A DNA stretch of 64,000 bases from Solirubrobacteraceae bacterium (GTDB lineage: Bacteria; Actinomycetota; Thermoleophilia; Solirubrobacterales; Solirubrobacteraceae): contig JADGPL010000002.1 in assembly GCA_017882455.1 (NCBI GenBank), forward strand, positions 62,001 to 126,000. Reading direction: 5' to 3'. The translations under genes and the position numbers were made by a program. Below, in pieces: positions 53,560 to 64,000 of the stretch. The notes beneath the pieces are model-generated. The model ran no database searches. It saw nothing but the letters and a program-made list of their open reading frames with translations, and was not told where the DNA came from. Positions within the stretch are counted from its first letter, which is position 1. Every line of letters begins with the position of its first letter.

Positions 53560-53798
53560 AAACTGCAAACTGCAAGCCTGAATAGTTCCCGCATTTTGCG
53601 AGTTTTTGCCTGCCCTTTGGTGCAAGCGCTCTTGACCGTGGAGGCTCGGCTTTTTACGGTCGCTGCCAAGGACCGTCGTCCGCTGCGGGGCTGCTCCAAA
53701 CGGGTTGTCTGCCGCTCTGCCTCGGGCGTTGGCTCGCACGCTTGATGCTGCCGACTGGGTCACCCAGTCGCGCTAAATACTTCTTTCCAGGGGGAAAA

Positions 53799-56312
53799 GT
53801 GCCTTCACATCGCCGTTACTTTCTGATTCGGCTGCTGCTTGCGTGCGCGGCCATCTGTATTTCGTGTGGATTGTTCGTGGGGCAGGCATCGGCCGCAGCC
53901 CCGCCGTGTGCCGATCTCGAGATCCAGAGCATCGTCGTCTCTCCCACCAATCCGGTACAGGGACAGCCCGCGAACATCGAAGTCGTCGTCTACAACGCCG
54001 GCACGTGCACAGCGGGCGGGTTCGTGACGCAGTTCAGAACGTCCGTCAGCTCTCCGACGGGCCCGTCCGAATCGATCCCCAGCCTCAATCCCGGTGAATC
54101 GCGGGCGTTGAACCTGCCGTTCGTGTTCACCGCCTCGGGCAACTACGAGGCCGTCGTCCAAGTCGACACCGGCAACGCGGTGTCTGAGACGAACGAGGCA
54201 AACAACCTCGAAATCCAGCCGATCACGGTGCTGCCACCGGGCATCAACCTCGTCCTTGAAAACTTCTCCGTCTCCCCGGTGGTGTCCAACCCCACGAACT
54301 CGGTCGTCCAGGGCCGGGCTGCGATCGCGAGCATCACGGTGACGAACACCGGCAACGTGCCGGCGGGCCCATTCGTGGTCCAGTGGACGCCCTACGTGCT
54401 CGCCAAACCGCTGACGAAGTCCGTGAGCGGCCTCGCTCCGGGCGCGTCGACGACGGTGACGATGGAATACACCTTCCCGTTCGCGACCACGGTCACCGGA
54501 ACCGCCACCGCGGACTCGACCAAACAGGTCAAAGAGACCGACGAGCTCGACAACTCCAAGACCTTGAAAACGGTGGTCGAGCCGCCGCTGCCCAACCTCA
54601 AGGTGGCGCCGGGGGGCGTCCACGTCCAGCCGGCGCCCGCGGGCGGCGTCTCGACGATGGAAGTCGAAATCGAAAACAACGGCAACAACCCAGCCGGCGA
54701 CTTCGTCGTCACGTGGAGCCCGGGGCCCTTCATCGCCGCGCAGTCCCAGCAGGTCAACGGGCTCGGGGAGGGCGCACGGACCACGGTCGCCTTCAGCAAC
54801 CTCTACGCCTTCGCGGGCAACTACGAAGGCACCGTCACGCTCGACAGCACCCACGTGATCCCAGAGGTCAACGAGAGCGACAACACCGCCCCCACCACAG
54901 AGGCAGTGCCCGCCGCGACGGTCGACCTCACGATCACCGAAATGAACATCCGCCCCGAAGAAGAACAGTGCTGCGGCAACGACAGGGAGTGCTGCGACCT
55001 CAGGGCCAACTATTCGGCCTCCACCGTGACGCAGGGCGTCCCCAACACCGTCACCGTCACCGTGGAGAACCTCGGCAACAGCCCATCCGGCAGCTTCGTC
55101 ACGAGCTGGAACCCGAGCTCGCTCGGGATCATCGTGCCGGGGAACCAGACGCTTACGCAGTCGACCGGCCCGCTCGGCCCGGGAGAATCACGCGAAATCA
55201 CGTTCTCCTTCACCTACCCGAAGCCAGGCAACTTCCGCAGCATCGGCTTCGCAGACGCCTTCAACAACGTGAAAGAGACGAACGAGGCAAACAACCAGAA
55301 GATCCTCAACGTCACAGTCGCGCCCGCCCACATCGCGCTGGACTTCGCGACCCCGATCACCTTCTCCCCCGCACAACCCGTCGTGGGCGAGAAAGCAACA
55401 GCCAGCTACACCGTCCGCAACGACGGGCCGATCGCCTCCGAAGCGTTCGCCGTCCAACTGACACCCCAGCAGGAAGGCTTCACACAGACCCAGTTCATCG
55501 CCGGACTCAACCCCGGCGAAGAACACACCTTCACGTTCCCGGTGACCTACACCAAAAAGGGCCAGTTCACCGCCACCGCCGCGATCGACCCCTTCAACCA
55601 AGTCGTCAAGACAAACACACCCGACGAAGAGACCGAAACAGTCACCGTCGTGCCGAAATCGGCGCATCTATCGCTCCAACTCAGTGCCGTGGAAGATCTG
55701 GCGAACCCCGGTGGCTGGCAGGAATGGCAGGTAATCGTGCTCGCCTACCAGCCAGGCGCCGGCTGCACCATCACCGCGACGATAAACGGGAAAAAATTCC
55801 CGCAGGAAATCAAGAACGTGACCTGCGCTGACACGGGAAATACCCTGCGCAAACCGTTCTTCAACCCGGGCAACAAGCGGACGACCAACGCAACGGTCGA
55901 CCTGTCGCTGGAAGAAAACACACCCTTGGTGGCAGCCACGCTCGCTGTGAACATTTGCCAAGGGACACCCGTCGTCGGGGGGTGCGGGCTCGCAGGCCTT
56001 GAGTTCGGGTTCCCCGGAGTGAGCACACTGATTGAGCCGCGGACGGAATACCTGCACCCCTCCAGTGGCGAAAAGATGGAGGAAGGCAAAGGCTGCGAAG
56101 AAGGAAAACTCAAGGAAGGCCACTGCTACAACGCCTTCTACAAAGTCTCGCTCCTGGGCCATGTGGGTGCGGCTGCCATCAAACAGGAACCCTCGCCGCA
56201 GGCGACGAGCGCCATCGCGCAGGCCTCTACAGAACTCGGGCAACTGAGCAGCTCCGCGCAAGCATCGGGCGGATCCAAAGTCAGCATCACCACCAGTACG
56301 GTCGGCCCCTAG
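53799..56312 (+). CDS. Exported protein with five CARDB repeats
   Basis: This 837-residue protein has start GTG 53799 with GGGGGA just before it. A signal peptide (FLIRLLLACAAICISCGLFV) is followed by five CARDB-type beta-sandwich repeats of about 110 residues. Each begins with a 'linked to the protein surface' strand such as CADLEIQSIVVSPTNPVQGQ and has an NNG/TG turn before the next strand. Repeat four contains a dense Cys cluster EEEQCCGNDRECCDLRA, near residue 390. The last 190 residues are a different, unrecognised domain with three more Cys pairs. CARDB proteins act as extracellular adhesion or binding scaffolds. Confidence 0.85.
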   Translation: MPSHRRYFLIRLLLACAAICISCGLFVGQASAAAPPCADLEIQSIVVSPTNPVQGQPANIEVVVYNAGTCTAGGFVTQFRTSVSSPTGPSESIPSLNPGESRALNLPFVFTASGNYEAVVQVDTGNAVSETNEANNLEIQPITVLPPGINLVLENFSVSPVVSNPTNSVVQGRAAIASITVTNTGNVPAGPFVVQWTPYVLAKPLTKSVSGLAPGASTTVTMEYTFPFATTVTGTATADSTKQVKETDELDNSKTLKTVVEPPLPNLKVAPGGVHVQPAPAGGVSTMEVEIENNGNNPAGDFVVTWSPGPFIAAQSQQVNGLGEGARTTVAFSNLYAFAGNYEGTVTLDSTHVIPEVNESDNTAPTTEAVPAATVDLTITEMNIRPEEEQCCGNDRECCDLRANYSASTVTQGVPNTVTVTVENLGNSPSGSFVTSWNPSSLGIIVPGNQTLTQSTGPLGPGESREITFSFTYPKPGNFRSIGFADAFNNVKETNEANNQKILNVTVAPAHIALDFATPITFSPAQPVVGEKATASYTVRNDGPIASEAFAVQLTPQQEGFTQTQFIAGLNPGEEHTFTFPVTYTKKGQFTATAAIDPFNQVVKTNTPDEETETVTVVPKSAHLSLQLSAVEDLANPGGWQEWQVIVLAYQPGAGCTITATINGKKFPQEIKNVTCADTGNTLRKPFFNPGNKRTTNATVDLSLEENTPLVAATLAVNICQGTPVVGGCGLAGLEFGFPGVSTLIEPRTEYLHPSSGEKMEEGKGCEEGKLKEGHCYNAFYKVSLLGHVGAAAIKQEPSPQATSAIAQASTELGQLSSSAQASGGSKVSITTSTVGP

Positions 56313-57936: not shown

Positions 57937-58305
57937 TCAGACTTTTTTCAGCGGGTGTGCGGTGAGGACTTCGACTCGTGAGCAGACATCCTTGATCTTC
58001 TTGAACGTCAAGGACGTCCCCGAGATCTTGAATTCGTAGATGCCGGCCGACGCGCAGCTTCCCGGGCCGTGCAGCGTGATCCTCGAGCCCGAGATCACGT
58101 AGGTTCCGTGGCCGATGAGCCCGTAGGGAGCATGCAGCACGAAGCGACCCGGACTGAAAACGATGTGGTAGGTGCCGTCCAGGCTCCCAGCTGTCTTCAC
58201 AGTGGTCACATACGTGCCCGACAACGTTCCCGAGGCTGCGGCGAGCGCCGCTGGAGTTGTTGCGAGGATGAGTGCTATCGCCGCGGCGCGGCGGACGTGT
58301 TTCAT
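57937..58305 (-). CDS. Small exported beta-rich protein
   Basis: This 122-residue protein (start ATG 58305) has a signal peptide (KHVRRAAAIALILATTPAAL) and a roughly 100-residue beta-rich domain: GTLSGTYVTTVKTAG, YHIVFSPGRFVLHAPYGLIG, TYVISGSRITLHGPGSCASA, FKISGTSLTFKKIKDVC. This looks like a small lipocalin-like or calycin barrel, with two Cys that could pair. Its ATG overlaps the stop of the carboxyltransferase gene (ATGA), so the two are co-translated although one is exported and the other cytosolic. Confidence 0.7.
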   Translation of the reverse strand: MKHVRRAAAIALILATTPAALAAASGTLSGTYVTTVKTAGSLDGTYHIVFSPGRFVLHAPYGLIGHGTYVISGSRITLHGPGSCASAGIYEFKISGTSLTFKKIKDVCSRVEVLTAHPLKKV

Positions 58306-59840
58306 GGCTGGACTCCCTCCGGGGTGATGATTGGACGATAGCTTCTCGTCAGTCCGTCCGCTCGCCACGGAGCCTGCCGGGTGGCTGCGAAGACGTCCTG
58401 CTCGGCATCCTCGGCCCCGACTCCCGCCTCTGCCCGCTCGACGCCGGGAGCGGCTCCACAGCCAAGTCGCAGCGCATGCACCACGCGCTCTCGTGTTTCG
58501 GCCGGTTCGATCACGGCATCGATCGCGCCGGAGCCGAGCGCGGCGTCGGGAGAGAGGCTCTCCTCTGCGTAGCTTCGAGCGAGCCGTTCGCGAAGATGCG
58601 TGCTCCGCATACCCAGCAGCCGCCTGCCGTGGATGATCTCGACGGCGGCATGCGGGCTCATGATGCCGATCTCGGCGCGCGGCCACGAGAATGACGCGTC
58701 GGCGCCGAGGTCCTTGGAGTTCATGGTGATGAAAGCGCCGCCGAACGCCTTGCGTAGGACCACCGTGACCCGCGGCGAGCGCGCGGCGGCGAACGCCCGT
58801 AGCAGCCCGGCCCCGTGGCTGATCACCCCGGCCGCCTCCTGCCGGCTCCCGGGCATGAAGCCCGGCGTGTCAACCAGGACGAGCATAGGAATGCGAAAGG
58901 CGTCGCAGGTGCATATGAACTTTCTCCCCTTCTGGGACGCCTCGACGTCGATGATCCCGCCGCGATGCCGAGGTTGGTTCGCGATCACGGCGACGGAATG
59001 TCCCTCCAGACGTGCGAAGCCGACAACCATGTTGCGCGCCCAGTGCTCTGAAACCTCCCGGAAACGACCTGCGTCGACCAACCGTCCGATCAGCTCCCGA
59101 ACGTCGTAGTAGTTGCGGCTGCTCGGCGGTAGGACGCCAGCCGGATCGCCCTCGGTGGGCGCCTCCGGTGGCGCGACCGGCGCGGACATCGACGTGTTCT
59201 GAGGCAGATAGCCGAGCAGCTCGCGCAACAGCCGCATCGCGTCGCGGTCGTCCGTGGCGACGAAGTCGCAGACGCCGTTGCGGGCATGCACCCGCGTGCC
59301 GCCAAGAGCAGATGCCGTCACCTCCTCGCCGAGCGCGCGCTTGACGATCCGCGGGCCGGTCAGGAACATCGACGCCTTCTCGGTCATGACCACGAAGTCG
59401 GTGAGCGCCGGCGAGTAGCAGCCGCCGCCGGCCGAGACGCCGGTGATCACCGAGATCTGGGGCGCGCGGCCCGACAGCGCCACGTTCTCGTAGAAGATTC
59501 GTCCGAAGCCTCCCAGTGCAGCGGCGCCCTCCTGGAGGCGCGCCCCAGCCGACTCGAGGAAGCCGACGAGGGGAACCCGCGCCTGACGGCTGTGCCGGAG
59601 GGCGCGCACGATCACCTCGGCCTCGGCGACGCCCACCGAGCCTGCGGCGACGGAGGAGTCCTGGGCGTAGCAGACGATGGTCCGTCCCCCGACCCGGCCC
59701 CACGCTGCGTGAACACCGACCTCGGGACCGGCGGACAGCGAAGCCGGCTCGAGCGGATGCAGGCTCCGCGGGTCACACAGCAACTCGAGCCGCTCTCGCG
59801 GTGACGGACGGTCCACTTGCAAAGACGACGACAAAAGCAA
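58302..59840 (-). CDS. Acyl-CoA carboxylase carboxyltransferase (beta) subunit
   Basis: This crotonase-fold carboxyltransferase is 512 residues from TTG 59840 or 504 from GTG 59816. It moves CO2 from biotin to acetyl- or propionyl-CoA to make malonyl- or methylmalonyl-CoA. Motifs are VGFLESAGARLQEGAAAL, ISVITGVSAGGGCYSPALTD, LVDTPGFMPGSRQEAAGVI and VVLRKAFGGAFITMNSKDL. The first and third are the oxyanion-forming segments of the two halves. The last 50 residues are an unusual Ala/Gly/Glu extension. No biotin carboxylase or biotin carrier gene is beside it. It diverges from the large synthase and could supply its extender units. Confidence 0.9.
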   Translation of the reverse strand: MLLSSSLQVDRPSPRERLELLCDPRSLHPLEPASLSAGPEVGVHAAWGRVGGRTIVCYAQDSSVAAGSVGVAEAEVIVRALRHSRQARVPLVGFLESAGARLQEGAAALGGFGRIFYENVALSGRAPQISVITGVSAGGGCYSPALTDFVVMTEKASMFLTGPRIVKRALGEEVTASALGGTRVHARNGVCDFVATDDRDAMRLLRELLGYLPQNTSMSAPVAPPEAPTEGDPAGVLPPSSRNYYDVRELIGRLVDAGRFREVSEHWARNMVVGFARLEGHSVAVIANQPRHRGGIIDVEASQKGRKFICTCDAFRIPMLVLVDTPGFMPGSRQEAAGVISHGAGLLRAFAAARSPRVTVVLRKAFGGAFITMNSKDLGADASFSWPRAEIGIMSPHAAVEIIHGRRLLGMRSTHLRERLARSYAEESLSPDAALGSGAIDAVIEPAETRERVVHALRLGCGAAPGVERAEAGVGAEDAEQDVFAATRQAPWRADGLTRSYRPIITPEGVQP

Positions 59841-60143: not shown

Positions 60144-63100
60144 TTGTTCGAATTCATCGTGATGTGCCCCACCGGCTCGCCAGACGCCGCGGTTCCCATC
60201 GCCGGCAGCCGCGCCGGCGCTCTGGGCGTCGTCAACCTCGAGCTCGCCGTTGACCTCGACGCCGGCCTCGCCCAGCTGCGCAGGCTATGCGCGCTGGGGC
60301 ACGGGCGCTGCGGCGCGCTCCTCGACGGTCAGGACACGCTCGAGGTCGTGATCGACGCTTCGCTGCAGGGCCTTGACACAGTCATGCTGGCGAACACACC
60401 GGTCGAGGAGTTGAGCCGGCTGGTGAAGCTTGCCCACGGGGCACAGCTGCGCGCATGCGTCGTGGCGACGCGGCTCGACGAGGCCCTCGCTGCGCAGGCC
60501 GCCGGCGCCGACGGGGTGATCGCGAAGGGCCACGAGGCCGGAGGGTGGATCGGCGAGGAAGGCTCGTTCGTGCTGTCGCAGCGCCTGCTCGCGACGCTTG
60601 CCACCCCCGTATTCATCCACGGAGGCATCGGGCTGCACACGGTCGCCGCCGCTTACGTATCCGGCGCCGCCGGCGCGGTACTAGACGCCCAGCTCCTGCT
60701 CGCTCGCGAGTCGCCCCTGCCCGACGGTCTCCGCAGAACGCTCTCGGGGATCGACGGAAGCGAGACCGCGACGCTCGGCACATCGCTGGGCGCGCCCTTC
60801 CGCGCCTACAGCCGGCCAGGGCTGCGCAGCCTCGAGTCGCTGAGCAGCGCCGAACAGGAGCTCGAGCCGAGCGCAGAAGCACGGGATGCGTGGCGCGCGA
60901 CCGTCAAGGCGCATGTAGCCGACAGCTCGACAGATGCCTCGGTCCTCCCGCTCGGACAGGATGCCGCGTTCGCCGCCGATCTGGCGCGACGGTTCGGCAA
61001 TGTCGCCGGGATCATCGACGGTCTGCGATCGGCGATCGCAGACGCCTGCGAGACACTCCAGCGAACCAACCCGCTGGCAGAGGGCGCCGGAGTCGCTCGA
61101 TCGCACCGCACCCGCTACCCGCTCGTACAGGGCCCGATGACGCGGGTGAGCGACCGCGCGGAGTTCGCGGCCGCGGTCGCAGAGGGTGGCGCGCTTCCGT
61201 TCCTCGCGCTCGCCCTGATGCGCGGCCCCGACGCCGAGGAGCTGTTGGCGCGCACCGCCGAGCTGCTCGGTGAGCGCTCATGGGGCGTGGGCGTGCTCGG
61301 CTTCGTTCCCGCAGAGCTGCGCGCAGAGCAGCTCGAGGTCGTGCGCAGGCACCGACCGCCGTTTGCGCTGATCGCCGGCGGGCGCCCCGACCAGGCGCGC
61401 GAGCTCGAAGCCGACGGGATCGCGACATATCTACACGTCCCCTCGCCACAGCTGCTGAAGCTCTACCTGAAGGACGGCGCTCGCCGGTTCGTGTTCGAGG
61501 GGCGCGAGTGCGGCGGCCACGTCGGACCACGCACGAGCTTCGTGTTGTGGGACTCGATGCTCCGTGTTCTGCTCGAGGAGCTACCCGAGGACGCCTCCGA
61601 CTGCCACGTGCTTCTCGCCGGGGGCATCCACGACGCCATGTCGGCCGCGATGGCCGCCGCGACGGCGGCGGCCGCGAGCGGGCGTGGAGCCCGGATCGGC
61701 GCGCTGATGGGAACGGCTTACCTGTTCACTCGCGAGGCGACCGAATCCGGAGCCATCACACCCCTGTTCCAGGAGGCGGCCGTCGCGGCGCTCGACACCG
61801 CCTTGCTCCAGAGTGGACCCGGCCACGCCACCCGCTGTCTGCCATCGCCGTTCGTGGAGCAGTTCGAGGCCGAGCGACGCAGCCTGCAGGCCGCGGGAAT
61901 CGACGCGGAGGAGCTCCGCGGCCGGCTGGAGCAACTGAACATCGGGCGGCTTCGAATCGCGGCGAAGGGGGTCGACCGGGTCGCCGATCAGGACGGGCTC
62001 ATCGCGGTCGCTGCTTCCGATCAATGGGAGCAGGGCATGTACATGATCGGCCAGATCGCGGCGCTGCGCGACGGCGTTACGACGGTCGCAGATCTGCACG
62101 ATGAGGTCTCACACGGGAGCAGCAGGCTGCTGAGCGAGCTTGCCGCGCCCGTGCCCACACCGGACCCGCCGCCGCCGCCACCCGCCGATGTGGCGATCGT
62201 GGGGCTCGGCTGCATCCTCCCGGGCGCGCCCGACGTGGCGAGGTTGTGGACGAACATCCTCGAGAAGGTCGACGCGATCAGCGAGGTGCCGGCGGAGCGC
62301 TGGGACTGGCGCCAGATGTATGACCCCGACAGGAGCACGCGCGACAAGGTGTATTCCCGGTGGGGTGGGTTCATCGACCCCGTGCCCCTCGATCCGATGG
62401 CGCTCGGGTTGCCACCCAAGTCGCTGGCGTCGATCGAGCCCTTCCAGCTGCTGGCCCTGCTCTGCGCGCAGGCGGCTCTGAAAGACGCCGGCTATGCGAC
62501 GCGGCCGTTCGACCGGGAGCGGACGTCGGTGATCCTCGGCGCGGGAGGCGGGGGAGCCGATACGTCGGTCGGCTACACAGTCCGCTCAGCGCTGCCCTCG
62601 CTGCTGGGCGACGCCCTCCCGGAGTTGCAAGAGCGGCTGTTCGAGCGACTCCCCGAGTGGACCGAGGACAGCTTCGCCGGCCTGCTCATGAACGTGGCCG
62701 CCGGACGGATCGCCAATCGGCTGGACTTCGGCGGCACGAACTACACCGTGGACGCGGCGTGCGCCTCCTCTCTCAGCGCGATCGGCCTCGCGGCGCGCGA
62801 GCTGCAGGTCGGGACCAGCGACATGGTGCTCGCAGGTGGCGTGGATGCAATCCAGAACCCGTTCGCCTACCTGTGCTTCTCCAAGACACAGGCGCTGTCG
62901 CCGACGGGCCGCTGCCGCCCATTCGACGCCAATGCGGACGGCATCGCGATCAGCGAGGGATTCGCGACGGTCGTGCTGAAGCGCTTGGCTGACGCCGAGC
63001 GCGACGGCGACCGCATCTATGCGGTGATACGCGGCGTCGGCGCGGCCAGCGACGGTCGTGACCGCAGCCTCACGGCGCCGCGCCCCGAGGGCCAGATGCG

Positions 63101-64000
63101 CGCCCTGCGGCGGGCGTACGCACAGGCCCGCTTCTCACCGGCAACCGTTGGGCTCGTGGAGGCGCACGGGACCGGCACCGTCGCCGGCGACGGTGCCGAG
63201 GTGAAGGCGCTCACCACCGTGTTTGCCGAGCACTCCGAGCAGCACCAGTGGTGTGCGATCGGATCGATCAAGTCGATGATCGGCCACACCAAGGCGACGG
63301 CCGGGGTGGCGGGCATAGTCAAGGCGGCACTGGCGCTGCACCATCGCGTCCTGCCCCCCACGATCGGCGTGAGCGAGCCGAACCCCAAGGCCGGATTCGC
63401 CGAAAGTCCCTTCTACGTGAACAGCGAGGCGCGTCCGTGGCTGACCGGGGCCGCGGAGCATCCGCGCCGTGCCGGGGTGAGCGCGTTCGGCTTCGGTGGG
63501 ACCGACTTCCACATCGTGCTCGAGGAGTACCAGGGCGCCTATCTCGCAGAGCCTGACGCCGCCATCTCCAGCTGGCCAGGCGAGCTGCTGCTGTGGCGCG
63601 GTTCTGGCTCGGAGGTGACGGCCGCACTCGATCAGCTCGCCGCGAGGCTGGCGGCCGGCGAGGAGCTGCGCTTCGAGGACATCGCCCACGAGTCGGCCCT
63701 CGCCTTCCGCGAGCGCCAGCACGGAGGACCTACCCTCGCGCTCGTCGTCGAGTCGCTCGAGGACCTGGGCGCGAAGATCGTACGGGCACGGGAGATCCTC
63801 GGTGCCGGCGAGCTTCGCCGCCACCAGCAGGATGGGATCTACTGGTCCGCACAGCCGCTGAGCACCGAGGGCAAGGTGGCGTTCCTGTTCCCTGGGCAGG
63901 GCTCGCAGACCCTCGACATGGGACGCGAGCTCGCGATGGCATTCCCCGAGGCGCTCGAGCAGTTCGAGCTCGCCGACCGGATACTCGCCGACTTCTACGA
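60144..64000 (+). CDS. Large PUFA/glycolipid-type polyketide synthase with two N-terminal nitronate-monooxygenase-like barrels (partial)
   Basis: This frame stays open to the window end (at least 1,285 residues). It opens with an NMO/2-nitropropane-dioxygenase-like TIM barrel (VPIAGSRAGALGVVNLEL, GHEAGGW at 129-135). A second such barrel starts near residue 323 (TRYPLVQGPMTRVSD) with ECGGHVG at 455-461. After a Pro-rich linker comes a ketosynthase from residue 683 (VAIVGLGCILPG). Its triad is Cys873 (DAACASS, the PUFA-type signature), His1008 (HGTGT) and His1048 (GHTKA). An acyltransferase begins at 1250 (PGQGSQ). TTG 60144 follows a GGGGGGA ribosome site; ATG 60099 is also in frame. The product is unknown. 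Confidence 0.88.
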   Translation, partial: MFEFIVMCPTGSPDAAVPIAGSRAGALGVVNLELAVDLDAGLAQLRRLCALGHGRCGALLDGQDTLEVVIDASLQGLDTVMLANTPVEELSRLVKLAHGAQLRACVVATRLDEALAAQAAGADGVIAKGHEAGGWIGEEGSFVLSQRLLATLATPVFIHGGIGLHTVAAAYVSGAAGAVLDAQLLLARESPLPDGLRRTLSGIDGSETATLGTSLGAPFRAYSRPGLRSLESLSSAEQELEPSAEARDAWRATVKAHVADSSTDASVLPLGQDAAFAADLARRFGNVAGIIDGLRSAIADACETLQRTNPLAEGAGVARSHRTRYPLVQGPMTRVSDRAEFAAAVAEGGALPFLALALMRGPDAEELLARTAELLGERSWGVGVLGFVPAELRAEQLEVVRRHRPPFALIAGGRPDQARELEADGIATYLHVPSPQLLKLYLKDGARRFVFEGRECGGHVGPRTSFVLWDSMLRVLLEELPEDASDCHVLLAGGIHDAMSAAMAAATAAAASGRGARIGALMGTAYLFTREATESGAITPLFQEAAVAALDTALLQSGPGHATRCLPSPFVEQFEAERRSLQAAGIDAEELRGRLEQLNIGRLRIAAKGVDRVADQDGLIAVAASDQWEQGMYMIGQIAALRDGVTTVADLHDEVSHGSSRLLSELAAPVPTPDPPPPPPADVAIVGLGCILPGAPDVARLWTNILEKVDAISEVPAERWDWRQMYDPDRSTRDKVYSRWGGFIDPVPLDPMALGLPPKSLASIEPFQLLALLCAQAALKDAGYATRPFDRERTSVILGAGGGGADTSVGYTVRSALPSLLGDALPELQERLFERLPEWTEDSFAGLLMNVAAGRIANRLDFGGTNYTVDAACASSLSAIGLAARELQVGTSDMVLAGGVDAIQNPFAYLCFSKTQALSPTGRCRPFDANADGIAISEGFATVVLKRLADAERDGDRIYAVIRGVGAASDGRDRSLTAPRPEGQMRALRRAYAQARFSPATVGLVEAHGTGTVAGDGAEVKALTTVFAEHSEQHQWCAIGSIKSMIGHTKATAGVAGIVKAALALHHRVLPPTIGVSEPNPKAGFAESPFYVNSEARPWLTGAAEHPRRAGVSAFGFGGTDFHIVLEEYQGAYLAEPDAAISSWPGELLLWRGSGSEVTAALDQLAARLAAGEELRFEDIAHESALAFRERQHGGPTLALVVESLEDLGAKIVRAREILGAGELRRHQQDGIYWSAQPLSTEGKVAFLFPGQGSQTLDMGRELAMAFPEALEQFELADRILADFY

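Follow-up and report, generated by a model that had tools for sequence, protein, structure and literature searches.

The synthase locus and its gene neighbourhood

The window, a stretch of 64,000 nucleotides (C2:62001-126000) from a genome of 3.3 Mb in 51 contigs, ends within the gene of a very large multidomain synthase. Since the window lies inside the longer contig C2, the reading frame cut at the window end (ORF1) could be completed, and a second synthase frame (ORF2) follows it. The features are given below in window numbering, also where they lie beyond the window.

58302-59840, minus strand: acyl-CoA carboxyltransferase beta-type subunit, divergent from ORF1 (PF01039, E=2.6e-133)
60144-64000, continuing past the window end to 68360, plus strand: ORF1, synthase subunit 1, barrel 1-barrel 2-KS-AT-ACP-KR-DH (Pfam and open frame)
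60144-61064, plus strand: barrel 1, FabK-like TIM barrel without the catalytic His (profile match to FabK 5gvh, alignment, AlphaFold2 model)
60525-60548, plus strand: barrel 1 motif KGHEAGGW, with W at the His position of FabK and barrel 2 (motif and alignment)
61101-62141, plus strand: barrel 2, predicted FabK-like enoyl reductase domain (profile match to FabK 5gvh, weak NCBIfam FabK match)
61497-61520, plus strand: barrel 2 motif EGRECGGH with the catalytic-type His (alignment)
62187-63521, plus strand: ketosynthase KS1 (PF00109/PF02801, tree)
62751-62771, plus strand: KS1 active-site motif DAACASS (motif search; the triad motifs EAHGTGT and IGHTK were also found)
63882-64000, plus strand: start of the AT domain, which continues past the window end and is followed by ACP, KR and DH (Pfam)
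68246-73321, beyond the window: ORF2, KS-AT-DH-PPTase (Pfam)
73619-75220, beyond the window: AP-superfamily phosphodiesterase, 3' of ORF2
about 75240-76088, beyond the window: alpha/beta hydrolase

The longest open frame of ORF1 runs from TTG 60096 to 68360 (2,754 aa). A second candidate start, TTG 60144, has GGGGGGACG upstream and fits the homologue alignments better, and on this reading of the sequence it is the likely start. The ORF2 frame, opening at 68246, overlaps the end of ORF1. Pfam places in ORF1 the nitronate monooxygenase (NMO) family PF03060 in three stretches, KS (E 6e-67), AT (2e-43), one PP-binding domain, KR and DH, and in ORF2 one KS, AT, one DH and PPTase; it finds no ACP in ORF2. 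The catalytic motifs expected of KS, AT, ACP, KR, DH and PPTase were all found in the two proteins by motif searches. The earlier note on this DNA had described tandem NMO-like barrels ahead of KS-AT in a protein cut by the window end, with a carboxyltransferase beta subunit diverging from it, and all of this holds. The rightward extension and domain annotation that it proposed place ACP, KR and DH in the continuation of ORF1 and give two synthase proteins with no modular PKS downstream. The motifs it had quoted were located at aa 145-151 (GHEAGGW), 471-475 (ECGGH) and 886-892 (DAACASS), the barrel 2 histidine being His475 as counted from TTG 60096. In the nearest homologue (locus L011, near 13700, genome G059) the synthase frame is broken between AT and ACP and resumes in another frame, which reflects either an assembly error or decay.

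Behind the alpha/beta hydrolase of the window locus lie SDR and glycosyltransferase genes. Among ten loci with sequence past ORF2, an AP-superfamily (PF01663) gene is present in seven and an alpha/beta hydrolase gene in eight, directly after or near ORF2, and the synthase form with two KS domains recurs with these two enzymes across phyla. SDR, glycosyltransferases and one unclassified protein family recur in subsets of loci, and a Streptomyces plasmid carries in a row the synthase, a second KS protein, ACP, alpha/beta hydrolase, glycosyltransferase and methyltransferase. Upstream neighbours likewise recur in subsets only: among 59 loci with more than 3 kb of upstream sequence, sulfatase-like genes were seen in 8, TPR genes in 11 and sulfotransferase genes in 5. 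The divergent carboxyltransferase, which stands near the synthase in two genomes of the same family only, possibly supplies extender units.

Identity and conservation of the tandem barrels

Profiles of both barrels matched FabK of T. maritima (5gvh), with E=1e-29 for barrel 1 and E=2e-21 for barrel 2, and the barrel 2 profile did not match PfaD even at E 10. With the NCBIfam models each barrel gave a weak match to FabK (71.7 bits for barrel 2, far under the FabK equivalog cut-off of 453), and neither matched PfaD. The AlphaFold2 model of the tandem barrels (pLDDT 93.7, pTM 0.94) retrieved FabK chains on top in Foldseek (TMt 0.84-0.88), with PfaD chains at 0.42-0.51. Because FabK is the best match by profile, NCBIfam and fold, the barrels are called FabK-like; judged from these sequence and model comparisons, they are FabK-like domains but not orthologous FabK, from which they also differ in their tandem fusion to a megasynthase and in the loss of the His from one copy. 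The PfaD type, to which they had been assigned before, was rejected on profiles, NCBIfam and fold, and also because the TIGR02814 PfaD model found nothing in the whole genome of the window, while a control genome passed the cut-off in the same search. In a tree of barrels only, barrel 1 and barrel 2 each form one clade on long stems, and the order in which they branch relative to FabK, NMO and PfaD is uncertain. The literature searched contained no account of FabK-like barrels in tandem in synthases of this kind.

When 84,980 species genomes were scanned, 340 relatives came up, and the best 80, picked by similarity to the whole tandem, were kept; they are spread over more than a dozen phyla, and together with three genomes of the same family they make up 83 aligned loci. 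Both barrels are present in all 83, and KS comes next wherever the contig extends far enough. Conservation in every locus excludes chance as the source of the tandem. The His of the GGH motif, for which a catalytic role has been proposed (PMC13311796, PMC9260719), is kept in barrel 2 in 83/83 loci and in barrel 1 in 0/83. The retrieval patterns were taken from the start of barrel 2 and the linker, so the His position of barrel 1 was not selected on. Barrel 1 has R (35/83), W (33/83) or F (5/83) at this position, and L, V, S, I, G, K, Q or A in the rest. The motif I Met is likewise kept in all 83 copies of barrel 2 and lost in barrel 1, and mean column identity is 70% for barrel 2 versus 46% for barrel 1; as far as the alignment tells, barrel 2 is the slower-evolving of the two. 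Barrel 1 nevertheless keeps its FMN-contact Glu and GG phosphate loop in 83/83, so that cofactor binding or some activity of its own may persist.

The active-site-like motifs attributed to both barrels in the earlier note are thus present, but the idea that they are equivalent and both active was rejected, because barrel 1 lacks His where barrel 2 and FabK have theirs. With its FabK fold and catalytic-type His, barrel 2 is likely an enoyl reductase (ER), as predicted from sequence, and barrel 1 is probably its non-catalytic partner. It is also conceivable, if unlikely, that barrel 1 works as an enzyme in its own right with another specificity, Arg or Trp having taken the place of His to serve a different reaction or substrate. 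The dominance of these two residues and the invariant FMN-type contacts (Glu and the glycine-rich loop) would fit such an enzyme, but the residue at the His position also takes nine other forms, the motif I Met is lost and the sequence of barrel 1 drifts faster. We regard it as very improbable that the barrels work as nitronate monooxygenases, with a nitro or another oxidised group as their target, and not as ERs. The Pfam label would be in line with this and the families are homologous, but FabK is the best match by profile and fold, the alignment shows GFVP in barrel 2 in place of the SFHF-type motif II His of NMO (motif as defined in PMC13311796), and Pfam finds no other enoyl reductase domain in ORF1 or ORF2. 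A reductase barrel with a non-catalytic partner remains our preferred reading of the pair.

Relation to PUFA synthases and to Type P

ORF1 scores 1168 bits on the TIGR02813 PfaA model (cut-off 1010). In the KS tree, KS1 groups with the Type P KSs in a single clade (100/99), which is sister to the KSs of PfaA and heterocyst-glycolipid type with a joint support of 96/93; the PfaA and PfaC reference labels in this tree rest on the gene neighbourhood of PfaD-model matches, and the Hgl-like label is provisional and rests on the genomic context in Fischerella. KS1 stands apart from the sampled trans-AT and modular KSs, the modular references being few. These results agree with the earlier description of a large type I synthase related to PUFA and heterocyst-glycolipid synthases, and the KS phylogeny that had been suggested keeps KS1 away from the ordinary cis-AT KSs among those sampled. 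The DAACASS signature reported for the KS is also common to PfaA and PfaC; it occurs in 21/26 KS1 sequences, and the other five (aligned separately) have DAACGSS or NAACASS with the Cys kept. The KS of ORF2 (KS2) forms a clade of its own (100/99), separate from PfaC, and the KS scan found no chain-length factor (CLF)-like second KS in ORF2. On these two grounds, identity of ORF2 with PfaC was rejected.

The tandem-barrel fusion had been presented as a departure from the norm, but it is not exceptional: it is what one normally finds in a large class to which the published Beijerinckia indica Type P cluster also belongs. In the synthase on pBIND02 of this species (WP_012382816.1), the two barrels (GHEAGGQ and ECGGH) come with KS, AT, two ACPs and KR; behind the synthase gene lie those of two type III PKSs and of a DH-PPTase protein. 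In the list of Shulse and Allen, this strain's cluster is entered under Type P along with Azotobacter ars (PMC3098273). Type P/ars systems make the alkyl chains of phenolic lipids, e.g. behenic acid (PMC3098273); those of Azotobacter ars are C22-26, ArsA is a C23-25 fatty acid synthase (PMC4824345), and its acyl-ACP passes to type III PKSs (PMC6274091). The window synthase shares with Type P the pair of a His-less and a His-bearing barrel ahead of KS-AT-ACP-KR, the placing of a DH and a PPTase on another protein and the KS clade, and relatives in Beijerinckia and Methylosinus show the same fusion and clade. It differs in its own KS-AT-DH-PPTase protein, the second KS-AT being absent from Type P, where the DH-PPTase protein lacks it, in the DH inside ORF1, and in AP-superfamily, hydrolase and glycosyltransferase neighbours instead of type III PKSs. 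The genes examined around the window locus include no type III PKS, and the head group can therefore not be the same as in ars. The likeness to Azotobacter vinelandii ars comes via the literature grouping with Beijerinckia, ArsA being known here by description alone. By analogy, the window synthase appears related to a known machine for bacterial cyst lipids, and from the likeness to the Beijerinckia system together with the ArsA literature, the best inference is that it reduces and saturates its chain.

A true PUFA synthase, which would make polyunsaturated fatty acids and use its ER in some cycles only, would be consistent with the PfaA score, the sister position of KS1 to PfaA and the two DH domains of ORF1 and ORF2 together. 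Like the bacterial PfaABCDE systems (Types A/B), the window synthase has a PfaA-type KS-AT-ACP-KR-DH core, but the separate PfaD ER, the PfaC with KS-CLF and two DH domains and the multiple tandem ACPs of those systems were not found: the ER is FabK-like and in cis, ORF2 has one KS and KS2 lies outside the PfaC clade, and ORF1 has one ACP, as do 31 of 43 full-length relatives. Moreover, Type P, the relative that is classed with a characterised system, is tied to the alkyl chains of phenolic lipids (PMC3098273), and a PUFA product seems to us improbable, though not negligibly so. We consider it extremely improbable that the window synthase is a single module in a modular polyketide assembly line of the ordinary kind. 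Relatives carry no annotation beyond 'type I polyketide synthase' or 'SDR family oxidoreductase', the first of which would suit such a module, but the locus has just two synthase proteins with one ACP and their own PPTase, and we rejected this reading on the position of KS1 outside the sampled trans-AT and modular KSs. We prefer a reducing synthase of the Type P kind. Two PUFA systems bear on the architecture. In Renibacterium, Aquimarina and Flavobacterium, fused pfaDA and pfaBC-PPTase genes (PMC13291983) likewise join an ER to PfaA and end the second protein with a PPTase, a likeness drawn from the paper's description and not from sequence. The thraustochytrid ER domains ERb and ERc are also an unequal pair of flavin barrels within a single synthase, where one depends on its counterpart (PMC13311796), but they are of PfaD type, split over two proteins and have the catalytic His in both. 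In one Singulisphaera genome (G102), a PfaA-like synthase that has a KS-CLF partner and a tandem-barrel synthase occur together, at C1:4553031 and C1:6958655.

Proposed pathway and distribution

From the observed domains, motifs, KS ancestry, conservation and gene order, we think it reasonably probable that ORF1 and ORF2 form an iterative reducing type I synthase of a secondary lipid (fatty acid/polyketide), related to ars/Type P, with barrel 2 as ER in cis and barrel 1 as a likely non-catalytic partner. The PPTase at the end of ORF2 would arm the single ACP of ORF1, the ATs would load malonyl units and the KS domains would extend the chain, with the KR and DH domains working on each beta-keto unit. 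Barrel 2 would bind FMN and, as a FabK-like FMN/NAD(P)H enoyl reductase, saturate the chain in every cycle in place of a separate PfaD, while barrel 1 most likely pairs with it in a pseudo-dimer, standing in for the second subunit of the FabK homodimer. Release or transfer of the chain would probably be carried out by the conserved downstream alpha/beta hydrolase, and decoration by the AP-superfamily enzyme, SDR and glycosyltransferases could yield a long-chain, largely saturated (glyco)lipid. Our literature search found no biochemistry on the two-KS form.

A wider proposal is offered more tentatively, as a possibility that we would not yet expect to hold: the two-KS synthase, AP-superfamily phosphodiesterase and alpha/beta hydrolase may constitute an unrecognised lipid pathway in more than a dozen phyla, with an internal live/dead FabK-like pseudo-dimer as ER and, as product, long-chain envelope lipids of a new class that bear phosphate, sulfate or sugar. 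Once the clade, its in-cis FabK-like reductase and the conserved gene set are recognised, they point towards a common pathway for long-chain lipids; the product of this pathway could be sought in the culturable carriers Micromonospora, Smaragdicoccus, Singulisphaera and Fischerella. The strict pairing of a live and a dead barrel would also make it possible to test cleanly why flavin enoyl reductases act as dimers.

Of 297 genomes sampled from the class of Smaragdicoccus, 42 had a match, some more than one, compared with 3 of 299 in the window's own class; five plasmids also carry relatives. Sulfatase-like and/or TPR genes stand just upstream in loci of cyanobacteria and proteobacteria (L045, L046, L064, L069, L070, L073, L077 and L085), and sulfotransferases in a few others. 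The unclassified family near the synthase occurs in several phyla (L006:519-2666, L160, L162, L163, L164 and L165), and the three members scanned had no Pfam match. The window's genome has a second AP-superfamily phosphodiesterase (PF01663) beyond the window, at 85240-86655 on the minus strand in window numbering, and a similar paralogue lies near the synthase in genome G060. Within the window, 53742-56312 encodes a possibly secreted protein that contains five CARDB repeats and whose N-terminus is hydrophobic.
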